A stretch of 64,000 bases of DNA from Alphaproteobacteria bacterium (lineage in GTDB: Bacteria > Pseudomonadota > Alphaproteobacteria > SMXS01), in contig JANQQJ010000005.1 in assembly GCA_028284945.1 (NCBI GenBank), positions 1 to 64,000 of the forward strand. The letters run 5' to 3'. The notes below the pieces were generated by a model. It saw only the letters and a program-made list of their open reading frames with translations, did no database searches and was not told the origin of the DNA. This document shows, in pieces, positions 2,428 to 12,481 of the stretch (the first letter of the stretch is position 1; each line of letters starts with the position of its first letter). The translations under genes were made by a program, and so were the position numbers.

Positions 2428-3549
2428 ATGGACAGAATTGCGACAATCGCGGATTTGCGGGAGGCCTCGCGGCGTCAGTTGCCGCGGCCCATCTTCGACT
2501 TCATGGATGGTGCGGCGTTCCATGAATTAACGCTTCGCGCCAATTGTGACGACTTTGATAAGCTGCGCTTTCGCCTCAGACCCTTAAGGGATGTGGCCGA
2601 GCGCAGCCTGGCGACCACAATGCTGGGTCAGCCGGCAAGCATGCCGGCCGCCATCGCGCCCATCGGCCTTGGCGGGGTCATGTGGGGCAATGATGGCGAG
2701 AAGCTGTCGGCACGCGCGGCAAAGGCGGCGGGCATACCCTTCACCCTGGGCATGCTGTCGATTGCCACCATCGAAGAAGTTCACGCTGAGGTCGGGGAGT
2801 TCTGGTTTCAGTTTTGCATGCTCAAGGACAGGGGCTTGGTCGAGGCACTTTTGGACAAAGCCAAAGCGGCTGGATGTTCGGTGCTGGTCATGACCGTCAC
2901 ATGGTCTGCATCGGGCCTGCAAAGCCGGATGGTGCGCAATGCCATGATGCTGCCCCCGAAAATCACACCGGGCACATTATGGGACTTTGCCAAGCGGCCA
3001 GGCTGGGTGGCGCGTTACCTCAGGGGCAAAAATGTCGGCTTCAATAATTTTGAAGGACTGGTGGCAGATCCCGGCGATCTTGCAGCCATCGTCGAACAGC
3101 TGGATTCGTCAACCACCTGGAAAGACCTCGATTGGTTACGTAGTGTCTGGCCCGGAAAGATCATCATCAAAGGGATCAACAGTGCCGAGGATGCCAGCCG
3201 GGCGATGGAGCACGGCATGGATGCGGTCAGCGTGTCCAATCATGGGGGCAACCAGCTGGATCATGCAGCGTCGACCATTTCTGTACTGCCCAGTGTTGTT
3301 GAGGGAGTCGATGGCCGCGGTGAGGTGCTGCTGGATGGCGGTGTGCGGTCAGGCCAGGACATATTGAAATGTGTCGCCCTGGGCGCGACGGGCTGCCTGC
3401 TGGGCCGTGCGCATCTCTATGGTCTTGGCGCTGGGGGAGAGCGCGGTGTCGCCAAGGCGCTCGATATTATTCGGTATGAACTTGATGTTTCCGTCGCGCA
3501 GACGGGATTGAACGATGTGCGCGACGCATCGCCCAAGATCCTGGCCTGA
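2428..3549 (+). CDS. FMN-dependent alpha-hydroxy-acid oxidase family protein with altered active site
   Basis: This 373-residue protein aligns end to end with the LldD / glycolate oxidase family, a TIM barrel binding FMN that oxidises L-2-hydroxy acids. The FMN-contacting lysine (IIIKG, K248), the catalytic histidine (SNHGG, H272) and the phosphate-binding segment (LLDGGVRSG) are present. Compared with spinach glycolate oxidase recalled from memory, Tyr24 is Phe (F25), Tyr129 is Cys (C130), Asp157 is Thr (T158), Arg164 is Gln (Q165) and Arg257 is Asn (N275). The substrate-carboxylate arginine and the Asp partner of the catalytic His therefore seem lost. It may act on an uncharged substrate, or by another chemistry. 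Confidence 0.8.
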   Translation: MDRIATIADLREASRRQLPRPIFDFMDGAAFHELTLRANCDDFDKLRFRLRPLRDVAERSLATTMLGQPASMPAAIAPIGLGGVMWGNDGEKLSARAAKAAGIPFTLGMLSIATIEEVHAEVGEFWFQFCMLKDRGLVEALLDKAKAAGCSVLVMTVTWSASGLQSRMVRNAMMLPPKITPGTLWDFAKRPGWVARYLRGKNVGFNNFEGLVADPGDLAAIVEQLDSSTTWKDLDWLRSVWPGKIIIKGINSAEDASRAMEHGMDAVSVSNHGGNQLDHAASTISVLPSVVEGVDGRGEVLLDGGVRSGQDILKCVALGATGCLLGRAHLYGLGAGGERGVAKALDIIRYELDVSVAQTGLNDVRDASPKILA

Positions 3550-4247: not shown

Positions 4248-5330
4248 TTATTGGGCCGGTATACGTGTCCAACGGCGATGCGAGGGGCCTTCAGGTCCCC
4301 GCTTTTCGCCTGCATGCTCGGGATAGACCGACGCGATGTAGAAGTCACCGTGGGCGTCGATCGCCATTTGATGGATGTAAATCGCGACCTTTTCCACCCG
4401 GTCAATCACCTCACCGGTCGTCGCATCCAAAATGGCGACATTACTGCGGTCGTCGGCGGCATAGATCTTGTCGCCTTTGACCATAACGCTCAGCGGTGTG
4501 ATATGCGTCCATTCGGTGATGTAGTTTCCGTCGGCATCAAGCACCTGAATGCGATGCTGGCAGTTGGCGTCGCGTGTGTTTCGATGCTTTGCAATCTGGC
4601 CCGGTATGGTCATATAGGCGTGCAGATTGCCGCCGCACAGATCGACCGCCAGAAGCCGGCCATCGGCAGTTTGCGCTAAAGAGTGGACCGTATTGAACTC
4701 CGCCGGTTCTCTGCCCCATGTGCCAACCGATTTGATGAACTCGCCATCGGCTGTGTACCAGACCAGGCGAGAATTCCAGTAACCATCAGCAACGACAATG
4801 TTGCCATTGTCTTGAACCACGACGGCGGTCGGCCCGTTCAGGTGATCAGGACCGTCGCCGGGTTCGGCAAATGTGCCAAGGGTCAAAAGCAGTGCGCCGT
4901 CGGGGCTGTACTTCTTCACCGTGTGTCCATCGCGGTCGACGACCCAGAACATGCCATCTTCTTCGATGTAAAGCGTATGCGCGCCCAGGGCGAAACCGGG
5001 CTCGTCGGACGGGCCCCATAGACCGAGATAGTTTCCATCGCGATCGAACATGGAAATCGTGCTCTTGCCCATCTTGGTCGTCATGGCCAGCGGATGGGTC
5101 GCCCAATGCTCGATGTCCCGGGTAAAGAGATAAATGATGCCCTCGCCATCAACCGCGACACCCGACCCCATTTCGAACCGCATGTCAGGCGGATATTGGG
5201 GCCAGTCTTCAACCAGGCGATAGTCGCCGCTCGGCTCATCCGCCAGTACGGGGGCGGAAGACGCGAACGCCAAAGCGGTGATGGCCACCGAAAGCGCCAT
5301 TGTTGCGGTGCGTGTCGCTGATTGCTTCAT
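4248..5330 (-). CDS. Exported NHL/beta-propeller protein (peptidyl-amidating-lyase-like)
   Basis: I placed the start at the ATG at 5330, preceded by GGGGGAGATGTC, rather than the longer frame to 5375, because it begins directly with a signal peptide (MKQSATRTATMALSV, cleaved near PVLA-DEP). The 360-residue protein contains repeated NHL-type blades (for example GNYLGLWG, GPTAVVVQDNGNIVVADG, ADGRLLAVD). This resembles the lyase domain of peptidylglycine amidating enzyme and other six-bladed propellers. It is periplasmic or extracellular. Substrate unknown. It converges on the split-barrel gene. Confidence 0.75.
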   Translation of the reverse strand: MKQSATRTATMALSVAITALAFASSAPVLADEPSGDYRLVEDWPQYPPDMRFEMGSGVAVDGEGIIYLFTRDIEHWATHPLAMTTKMGKSTISMFDRDGNYLGLWGPSDEPGFALGAHTLYIEEDGMFWVVDRDGHTVKKYSPDGALLLTLGTFAEPGDGPDHLNGPTAVVVQDNGNIVVADGYWNSRLVWYTADGEFIKSVGTWGREPAEFNTVHSLAQTADGRLLAVDLCGGNLHAYMTIPGQIAKHRNTRDANCQHRIQVLDADGNYITEWTHITPLSVMVKGDKIYAADDRSNVAILDATTGEVIDRVEKVAIYIHQMAIDAHGDFYIASVYPEHAGEKRGPEGPSHRRWTRIPAQ

Positions 5331-5383
5331 GACATCTCCCCCATCTTTTCCCATCGGAACTGTAACGGAAGTCATCGCAGATA

Positions 5384-8517: not shown

Positions 8518-8753
8518 TACTGTTACTACCGGCTGTTGCCCATGCGAAAAAAACTTCGCGGCCCCTCGAAGCGAAGCAACTATAACGTTTCTTTACATTA
8601 TGCGCACCAATTTTGTTTTTCGGATACAACTAAAATTCGAATTATTTCAAAGGCTTAATAAGGGTTTCTATGGTGTGAATTTAGATAAAATTTGGTGTTC
8701 TTGACCGACCCTAAACCTCTGTGCGAGCGTCATTATCTGAAATGGAGAGAGCG

Positions 8754-9251
8754 ATGAGCCATCCAACAATCGATATTGAAGGCGGTAGCGAACGGGTAAA
8801 AGGCGGGCCGGGCGCCGCGCCAATGAGCAAGGGTGTGATGAAAATCTTCACCCGCGTTAACGTCTGGGTCTACAAATTGACCGGTGGCCGTATGATGAAT
8901 GAGATGAATGGCACGCCGGTTTGCCTGATCACCATGACTGGCCGCAAAAGCGGAAAAAAGCGCACCATTCCCCTGATGTATAACCCGTGCGGGGACGATG
9001 TGGTGCTGGTGGCGTCCATGGGTGGGGCACCAAAACACCCAATTTGGTACCACAACCTGGTCGCAAACCCGGATATTGAGGTCCAGGTCAAAGGCAAGGG
9101 GAAGCGATCGATGCGCGCCCGGCAGGCCTCTGACGAAGAAAAAGCAGCGCTTTGGCCAAGCTTGGTCGAGAATTTCCCGAATTTTTCGATCTATGCCGAA
9201 CGCACGGATCGGAATATCCCGATGATGATCTGCTCGCCGGTTGAGGCCTGA
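8754..9251 (+). CDS. Nitroreductase / deazaflavin-dependent (Ddn-like) family protein
   Basis: The third ATG (8754) is preceded by GGAGAGAGCG and was chosen over 8721. The 165-residue protein shows the Ddn/FDOR-A split-barrel pattern: LITMTGRKSGKKRTIPLMY, VLVASMGGAPKHPIWYHNL and the ANPDIEVQVKGK strand. Characterised members use the deazaflavin F420 in mycobacteria. Whether this organism makes F420 cannot be seen here, although an LLM-type gene of a commonly F420-dependent subfamily lies nearby (11591-12481). Confidence 0.82.
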   Translation: MSHPTIDIEGGSERVKGGPGAAPMSKGVMKIFTRVNVWVYKLTGGRMMNEMNGTPVCLITMTGRKSGKKRTIPLMYNPCGDDVVLVASMGGAPKHPIWYHNLVANPDIEVQVKGKGKRSMRARQASDEEKAALWPSLVENFPNFSIYAERTDRNIPMMICSPVEA

Positions 9252-11590: not shown

Positions 11591-12481
11591 ATGCAACTTG
11601 GCGCCATGTTTCCAACCACCGAGATCGGTAACGATCCGGCCGCCATCAAAGACTATGCGCAGGGCATCGAAGACCTCGGCTTCGATTACATCGTTACCAT
11701 CGAACATGTGTTGCAGGTCGATCCCAAGGGCGACCCTGACGTGTTCGCGCCTTATACGTTGGAGGATTCGTTTCACGAACCCTTCGTGCTGCACGGGTTT
11801 TTGGCGGCGTGCACGGAGAAGGTTGGTCTGTCGACGGCTATTCTGATCCTGCCGCAACGGCAGACGGTGCTGGCGGCGAAACAGGCGGCCGAAGTCGACG
11901 GCCTGTCCGGTGGCCGGCTGCGGCTGGGCATCGGGATTGGCTGGCAGGAGCTGGAATACACCGCCCTTGGCGAAGAGTGGACCAATCGCGGCAAGCGCTG
12001 TGAGGAACAGGTTGACCTGATGCGCAAGCTCTGGACCAATAAAGAAGTCGACTATAAGGGCGAATACCACACGGTGCCGGAATCAGGGTTCAACCCGAAT
12101 TCCGTCCAGAAACCGATCCCGATCTGGTTCGGCGGCATGGCCAAACAGGTTGCTGAACGCGTCGGCCGGATCGGCGATGGCTGGATTCCGATCGGCACGC
12201 CGCAGGATATGGCCGAACAGCTCGATATCATGCACGAGGCGGCTGAAAAAGCCGGGCGCGATCCCAAGGCGATTGGGATCGAGTCCATCACTGGACTTGC
12301 CAGCGCCATGACGCGGGACAACCCTGGCACCATGGACCAGGCGGTCGGCATGTCGAAGCTCTGGAAGGACGCCGGCGCCAGTCACTTCGCCTTTGGTAGC
12401 TCGATGATCGGCCTCAATGACGATATTGACGGCCATTTGAAGCTGGCCGCTGAATACAAGGAACGCATGGAAGCGCTTTAA
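11591..12481 (+). CDS. LLM-class luciferase-like oxidoreductase, probably F420-dependent subfamily
   Basis: The 296-residue (beta/alpha)8 protein has the luciferase-like monooxygenase pattern: a start at MQLGAMFPTT, FDYIVTIEHVL, LSTAILILPQRQTVLAAKQAAEVD, GRLRLGIGIGWQELEY, and a C-terminal PIWFGGMAKQVAERV. The organisation matches the TIGR03619-type subfamily annotated as F420-dependent; FMN use cannot be excluded. The ribosome-binding site is GGGGAGACTTAATC. An enoyl-CoA hydratase gene follows after 11 bases, indicating an operon. Confidence 0.85.
   Translation: MQLGAMFPTTEIGNDPAAIKDYAQGIEDLGFDYIVTIEHVLQVDPKGDPDVFAPYTLEDSFHEPFVLHGFLAACTEKVGLSTAILILPQRQTVLAAKQAAEVDGLSGGRLRLGIGIGWQELEYTALGEEWTNRGKRCEEQVDLMRKLWTNKEVDYKGEYHTVPESGFNPNSVQKPIPIWFGGMAKQVAERVGRIGDGWIPIGTPQDMAEQLDIMHEAAEKAGRDPKAIGIESITGLASAMTRDNPGTMDQAVGMSKLWKDAGASHFAFGSSMIGLNDDIDGHLKLAAEYKERMEAL

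Follow-up and report, generated by a model that had tools for sequence, protein, structure and literature searches.

A lineage-restricted clade of FMN-dependent alpha-hydroxyacid oxidase/dehydrogenase homologues with a divergent active site

INTRODUCTION

The textbook view of the FMN-dependent alpha-hydroxyacid oxidases and dehydrogenases counts an Asp–His dyad, a pair of arginines and a pair of tyrosines among the near-obligatory parts of the active site. The seven active-site residues, which we take to be Tyr24, Tyr129, Asp157, Arg164, Lys230, His254 and Arg257 of glycolate oxidase, supply the numbering used below. A gene at positions 2428–3549 of the window (the whole 64 000-nt stretch of alphaproteobacterial DNA analysed here) encodes a member of this family that appears to have kept only two of them. 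This raises the question of whether the gene is decaying, whether its catalytic residues are merely displaced in the alignment, or whether it belongs to a remodelled branch of the family, and in that case what kind of molecule it might act on.

RESULTS

An intact FMN_dh gene with a complete predicted fold

The open reading frame starts with an ATG at 2428, ends with a TGA at 3549 on the + strand and is open throughout its 373 codons; a putative Shine-Dalgarno-like GGGGA (2419–2423, + strand) lies 4 bases upstream of the ATG. Pfam FMN_dh (PF01070) matches residues 15–372 with 386.8 bits (cut-off 24.9), and the frame, profile, homologues, clade and structural model together identify the gene as a member of the FMN-dependent alpha-hydroxyacid oxidase/dehydrogenase family. 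No narrower family model claims it: the best NCBIfam match is the L-lactate dehydrogenase model PRK11197, at 331.7 bits under a cut-off of 376, and the LldD model NF033901 and the MftD model TIGR03966 give 286.9 bits (cut-off 550) and 258.6 bits (cut-off 470.85), respectively.

An AlphaFold2 model of the protein (pLDDT 88.4, pTM 0.90) predicts the beta8-alpha8 FMN barrel fold, with a low-confidence stretch near residues 161–180 in loop 4 (pLDDT 55–61). Its best solved match is the monotopic (S)-mandelate dehydrogenase MdlB (6bfg; Z 51.7, rmsd 1.7, 368 residues), and glycolate oxidases are also among the nearest (1gox; Z 48.4, rmsd 1.7, 344 residues); no MftD structure was among the solved-structure matches listed. 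MdlB and the window protein have a long loop 4 in common, but MdlB carries the full catalytic set Y, Y, D, R, K, H, R. The loop-4 segment of the window protein and its close relatives (the clade, defined below) is similar in length to the membrane-binding segment of the LldD/MDH type, which tentatively suggests a membrane-bound dehydrogenase that would hand electrons to quinone.

Five of seven active-site residues are replaced in every clade member

Residues were called from an alignment of the window clade, comprising 10 sequences, with 37 outgroup members of the family. Five glycolate oxidase positions are changed in the window protein: Tyr24 to F25 (codon 2500–2502), Tyr129 to C130 (2815–2817), Asp157 to T158 (2899–2901), Arg164 to Q165 (2920–2922) and Arg257 to N275 (3250–3252), the Asp–His dyad being lost with Asp157. 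The FMN lysine (Lys230; K248, codon 3169–3171) and the catalytic histidine (His254; H272, codon 3241–3243) are kept; all of these codons, and those given below, lie on the + strand. The original prediction had named exactly these five substitutions and two retained residues, and the alignment bears it out. In the same columns, the outgroup carries Tyr24 in 95% and Tyr129 in 97% of rows, and the remaining D, R, K, H and R in 100% each. All 10 clade rows have the replacement set F/W, C/S, T, Q/M and N, with Cys at the Tyr129 position in nine and Ser in one, and K248 and H272 are constant, so that just two of the seven active-site residues of the 2-hydroxyacid oxidase/dehydrogenase signature are present across the clade.

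The changes extend beyond the seven, to positions that the original prediction did not list. Where all 37 outgroup rows have Ser, all 10 clade rows have Gly (G108, codon 2749–2751), the constant Asp168 column is M or S in all of them, and M109 and W159 are clade-specific residues, W159 (codon 2902–2904) being invariant in the clade and common to MftD. In the 37 outgroup sequences 65 columns are constant at the 90% level or above, and at eight of these every one of the 10 clade sequences has another residue: five of the seven catalytic columns against three of the 58 others, namely Ser to Gly108, Asp168 and Gly279 (Fisher P = 1.3e-4, an indicative value since the rows are related and the outgroup was picked by similarity). 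With the same caution about related rows, four of six catalytic columns are replaced at a 95% constancy threshold (P = 0.0017, indicative) and three of five at 100% (P = 0.02, indicative).

Displacement of the catalytic residues was ruled out. A search of the 10 clade rows returned no Asp or Glu at 150–172 and no Arg or Lys at 262–292, indicating that the missing residues have not moved. The same searches bear on a second reading, that of an ordinary L-2-hydroxyacid dehydrogenase whose carboxylate site has been rebuilt from other residues. The clade is nested among canonical LldD-like enzymes, PRK11197 is the best NCBIfam match of the window protein even if below cut-off (331.7 against 376 bits), and Arg167 and Arg170 of loop 4 are present in all clade rows. 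However, no Arg or Lys is among the residues that are fixed in the clade but missing from the outgroup, Asp157 is gone too, and the 262–292 region is empty of Arg and Lys; we consider this reading very improbable.

Tyr24 helps the active-site arginines to hold the substrate carboxylate. In mandelate oxidase these arginines are Arg163 and Arg255, and activity on mandelate is reported lost in the R163A, R255A and H252F mutants (PMC6677016). Conserved active-site residues of FMN_dh proteins number seven in a published screen, in which eight of 10 inactive proteins are reported to be without at least one of them (PMC8491902). The expectation in the original prediction that the substitutions should stop normal 2-hydroxy-acid oxidation fits both the reported R163A and R255A losses and the inactive proteins of the screen.

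Two further mutants of p-hydroxymandelate oxidase (Hmo) are altered at the Arg164 and Tyr129 positions, both of which are changed in the clade. R163L accepts the amide mandelamide, which it oxidises to the ketoamide (PMC6677016), and Y128C turns mandelate into benzoate (PMC6778850). Each mutant carries one engineered substitution and is otherwise canonical at its active site, in contrast to five natural changes in the clade. Because Cys130 is the equivalent of Y128C, an oxygenase-like outcome is a real rival to simple oxidation: oxygen or flavin chemistry could be altered such that the first product is kept on the flavin for a four-electron oxygenase-like step, as with Y128F/Y128C, or the protein could act as a reductase or isomerase. 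Cys at this position in nine of 10 clade rows and the uniform replacement of the outgroup Ser by Gly are consistent with such chemistry. On the other hand, one clade row has Ser instead of Cys, the Y128C precedent covers one of the five changes, and no neighbouring gene demands an activity of this type. Altered oxygen or flavin chemistry is in our judgement fairly unlikely.

The clade is monophyletic, was seen in one family and shows purifying selection in close pairs

A tree of 50 rows, built after removal of six duplicate-gene rows, unites the 10 clade rows in a single group (support 100/100) within the LldD-like part of the family. Sub-clade A contains the window copy and six others, sub-clade B three rows. 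Nearest in the tree, at 43–49% identity, are Escherichia LldD and canonical LldD-like FMN dehydrogenases from the same class (L009, L010, L011, L012 and others). They share with the clade its fold, length, FMN lysine, catalytic His and LldD/MDH-type long loop 4, but keep Tyr24, Tyr129, Asp157, Arg164, Arg257 and a Ser at 108, all six of which the clade replaces.

Whole-genome searches placed relatives 54–70% identical to the window protein only within the same GTDB family. The clade gene is present in eight of the 10 genomes of this family, as 10 genes of which three are in one genome (G005), and is absent from both genomes of the family's second genus. In a class sample of 385 genomes searched with profile A1, clade members were confined to the same family and scores dropped from 657 to 462 bits, residues being read for part of the matches below that point. 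The window's own genome alone scored as a clade member in a phylum sample of 398 genomes. A DNA pattern for NHGGNxLD matched in six of the 385 class genomes, five of them in the same family; the sixth match, antisense to a frame resembling TerC by eye, was taken as chance. Among 72 556 plasmid records 819 matched, all below 60% identity (best 48.3%), and a contig scan with exact peptide patterns, which would miss most clade members, returned one relative at 43% identity. A limited search of the open-licence literature turned up no description that we recognised as this clade.

The only other full-length FMN_dh in the 10 family genomes is a second gene in G004 (C3:78087–79097), ∼38% identical over its C-terminal part. 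It has also lost Tyr24 but keeps Asp157 and Arg257. This gene (L139) lies ∼23 kb from the clade gene of the same genome, and its Arg164 position is probably changed. FMN_dh proteins were also encountered on 27 IMG/VR 'viral' contigs (L101–L127); the 15 that were aligned have mostly canonical active sites, and since several of the genes sit at contig ends they are likely host DNA at prophage edges.

Close pairs within the clade evolve under purifying selection, with dN/dS values of 0.082 (B_G006/B_G009), 0.088–0.089 (three sub-clade A pairs) and 0.132–0.139 (B_G005c pairs); the window copy against A_G002 gave 0.099 with saturated dS. Values between sub-clades A and B were higher, at 0.30–0.59, which may reflect biased codons and an underestimated dS, or else relaxation or a functional shift between the sub-clades. 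Intact frames, the absence of internal stops and purifying selection in close pairs rule out a decaying gene. Since the substitutions are shared by a 100/100 clade whose closest outgroups are canonical, this selection points to a remodelled branch. The original prediction had proposed such a branch on the grounds of an otherwise complete fold without frameshift, and had suggested looking for the same substitutions in other genomes. The fold claim agrees with the confident full-fold model and the open 373-aa frame, the substitutions recur in 10 of 10 clade rows from eight of 10 family genomes, and the tree, the uniform replacements, the lack of internal stops, the selection and the model all uphold a branch of the family over decay. 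We conclude that a well-known active site has genuinely been rebuilt in this clade, and that the change is conserved and lineage-restricted.

Another reading is a non-catalytic FMN-binding pseudoenzyme serving as a sensor, a flavin store or the partner of another protein. That five of the seven catalytic residues are gone would fit, as would the screen in which eight of 10 inactive FMN_dh proteins reportedly miss at least one of the seven (PMC8491902). In a pseudoenzyme, however, the catalytic His and FMN Lys would be free to drift, and they are constant in 10 of 10 rows; the replacements are near-uniform and not random, and the genes of several relatives cluster with those for catabolic enzymes. 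A pseudoenzyme is distinctly unlikely on these grounds.

Comparison with MftD

At the replaced positions the clade was also compared with MftD, pre-mycofactocin synthase, an enzyme that turns the lactam AHDP into a ketoamide by oxidative deamination (PMC7491314). Asn in place of Arg257 and Trp directly after the Asp157 position are found in 10 of 10 clade rows and three of three true MftD rows; Ser268 is likewise common to the clade and the three MftD rows, both have the SVSNHGGN motif, and both have lost Tyr24. MftD differs in keeping Tyr129, Asp157 and Arg164, all replaced in the clade, in belonging to the TIGR03966 family and in sitting in mycofactocin clusters. An AU test rejected the union of clade and MftD (P = 0.020), a result that the long MftD branch leaves short of beyond doubt, and with that caution Asn275 and Trp159 look convergent.

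No gene of the window's own genome exceeded the MftD cut-off of TIGR03966, and its best score against TIGR03962, the model of the mycofactocin radical-SAM maturase MftC, was 50.7 bits (cut-off 265). MftC exceeded the cut-off in none of 31 genomes, a sample that contained no positive control, and TIGR03966 had no match at E 1e-110 in the 398 phylum genomes, which shows little as the control had no match either. Profile score, genome content and tree together rule out an MftD orthologue.

An unannotated and apparently broken MftD-like gene was seen on a Sphingopyxis macrogoltabida plasmid (L082, 7938–8936), 52% identical to MftD over 72% and with SNYGGNN replacing SNHGGNN; the stretch examined has no annotated mycofactocin gene. 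This piece was omitted from the tree and the counts.

Genomic surroundings

Upstream of the window gene, at a distance of 55 bases, lies mscL (PF01741; 1977–2372, + strand), an adjacency that was not seen at the relatives' loci and that carries no sign of a shared function. Downstream, 101 bases away, a gene for a PNPOx/PPOX-class protein (PF01243; 3651–4232, + strand) resembles the F420 PPOX model TIGR03618 weakly. Within ∼13 kb are genes for an amidohydrolase, a TauD-type dioxygenase, a dienelactone-hydrolase-family protein, an LLM-class enzyme, an enoyl-CoA hydratase and an acyl-CoA dehydrogenase.

Neighbouring genes were called by a crude codon-usage gene caller, and some calls may be wrong. 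The neighbours in sub-clade A loci, taken from Pfam scans of G002 and G004 and carried over to G005, G007 and G008 through BLAST clusters, vary among TonB-dependent receptors, SDR dehydrogenases, Rieske ring-hydroxylating oxygenase subunits, an RPE65 carotenoid/lignostilbene-type oxygenase, an AhpD-like protein, a metallo-beta-lactamase-fold protein or a GMC oxidoreductase. Sub-clade B loci have a divergent TetR gene and, downstream, genes for an OYE-like flavoenzyme and an FAD_binding_2 protein (scanned in G006); the OYE-like protein scores 452 bits against TIGR03997, under the cut-off of 793. The Rieske/SDR/TonB neighbours on one side and the OYE-like/FAD_binding_2 neighbours on the other suggest the degradation of hydrophobic or aromatic compounds.

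Several further genes were observed around the window gene and elsewhere in its genome. A deazaflavin-dependent nitroreductase-family protein (window 8721–9251) exceeds the TIGR00026 cut-off, an F420 LLM-class protein (11591–12481) exceeds that of TIGR03619, and an 815-aa frame of the genome (C23:144671–146953) exceeds the CofH cut-off and has a further radical-SAM-like part; from these three the genome probably makes coenzyme F420. A gene on the − strand (4248–5375) encodes an NHL-repeat protein with weak ScyF similarity (59 bits, cut-off 350) and an N-terminal stretch resembling a signal peptide.

DISCUSSION

Five of the seven hallmark residues are swapped in every copy, and the clade proteins thus probably act on a different, non-acid molecule. 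We give roughly an even chance to the view that they are functional FMN enzymes in which the acid pocket has been rebuilt, with His272 working without Asp157 on an uncharged CH-OH or CH-NH2 substrate, probably in catabolism. FMN would bind as usual, Lys248 being kept in all 10 rows. With both carboxylate arginines and Tyr24 gone, the substrate would be expected to lack a free alpha-carboxylate and to offer an oxidisable CH-OH or CH-NH2, as in an amide, ester, ketone, or a benzylic or terpenoid alcohol or amine, to a neutral pocket presumably lined by F25, M109, C130 and W159. His272 would take the proton without support from Asp157, a hydride or electron pair would pass to FMN, and the electrons might then go to quinone or O2; the physiological setting would probably be the breakdown of hydrophobic compounds.

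By analogy, the MftD and mandelate oxidase R163L precedents suggest an uncharged substrate. Counting against this, both keep Asp157 and each is missing one of the two arginines. We know of no characterised family member without all five residues, so that redox activity may possibly have been lost altogether in the clade. The catabolic part of the proposal is also weakened by the window copy, which stands beside mscL and the PPOX-class gene with no clear catabolic cluster, and by contexts that vary between the sub-clades.

More tentatively, and as a possibility that we find less likely than not, the oxidation of neutral alcohols or amines may have arisen in this lineage-specific clade independently of MftD, as part of catabolic clusters and by means of a lone His that lacks an Asp partner, with a Cys of the active site next to the flavin. 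To our knowledge, such chemistry occurs in no natural member of the family.

For the family as a whole, similarity alone easily gives such proteins the name lactate dehydrogenase or alpha-hydroxy acid oxidase. The clade provides a second, apparently independent case of Arg257 to Asn beside MftD, and a natural clade with five of the seven residues stably replaced would allow a test of which residues flavin reduction itself requires and which serve only to grip the carboxylate.
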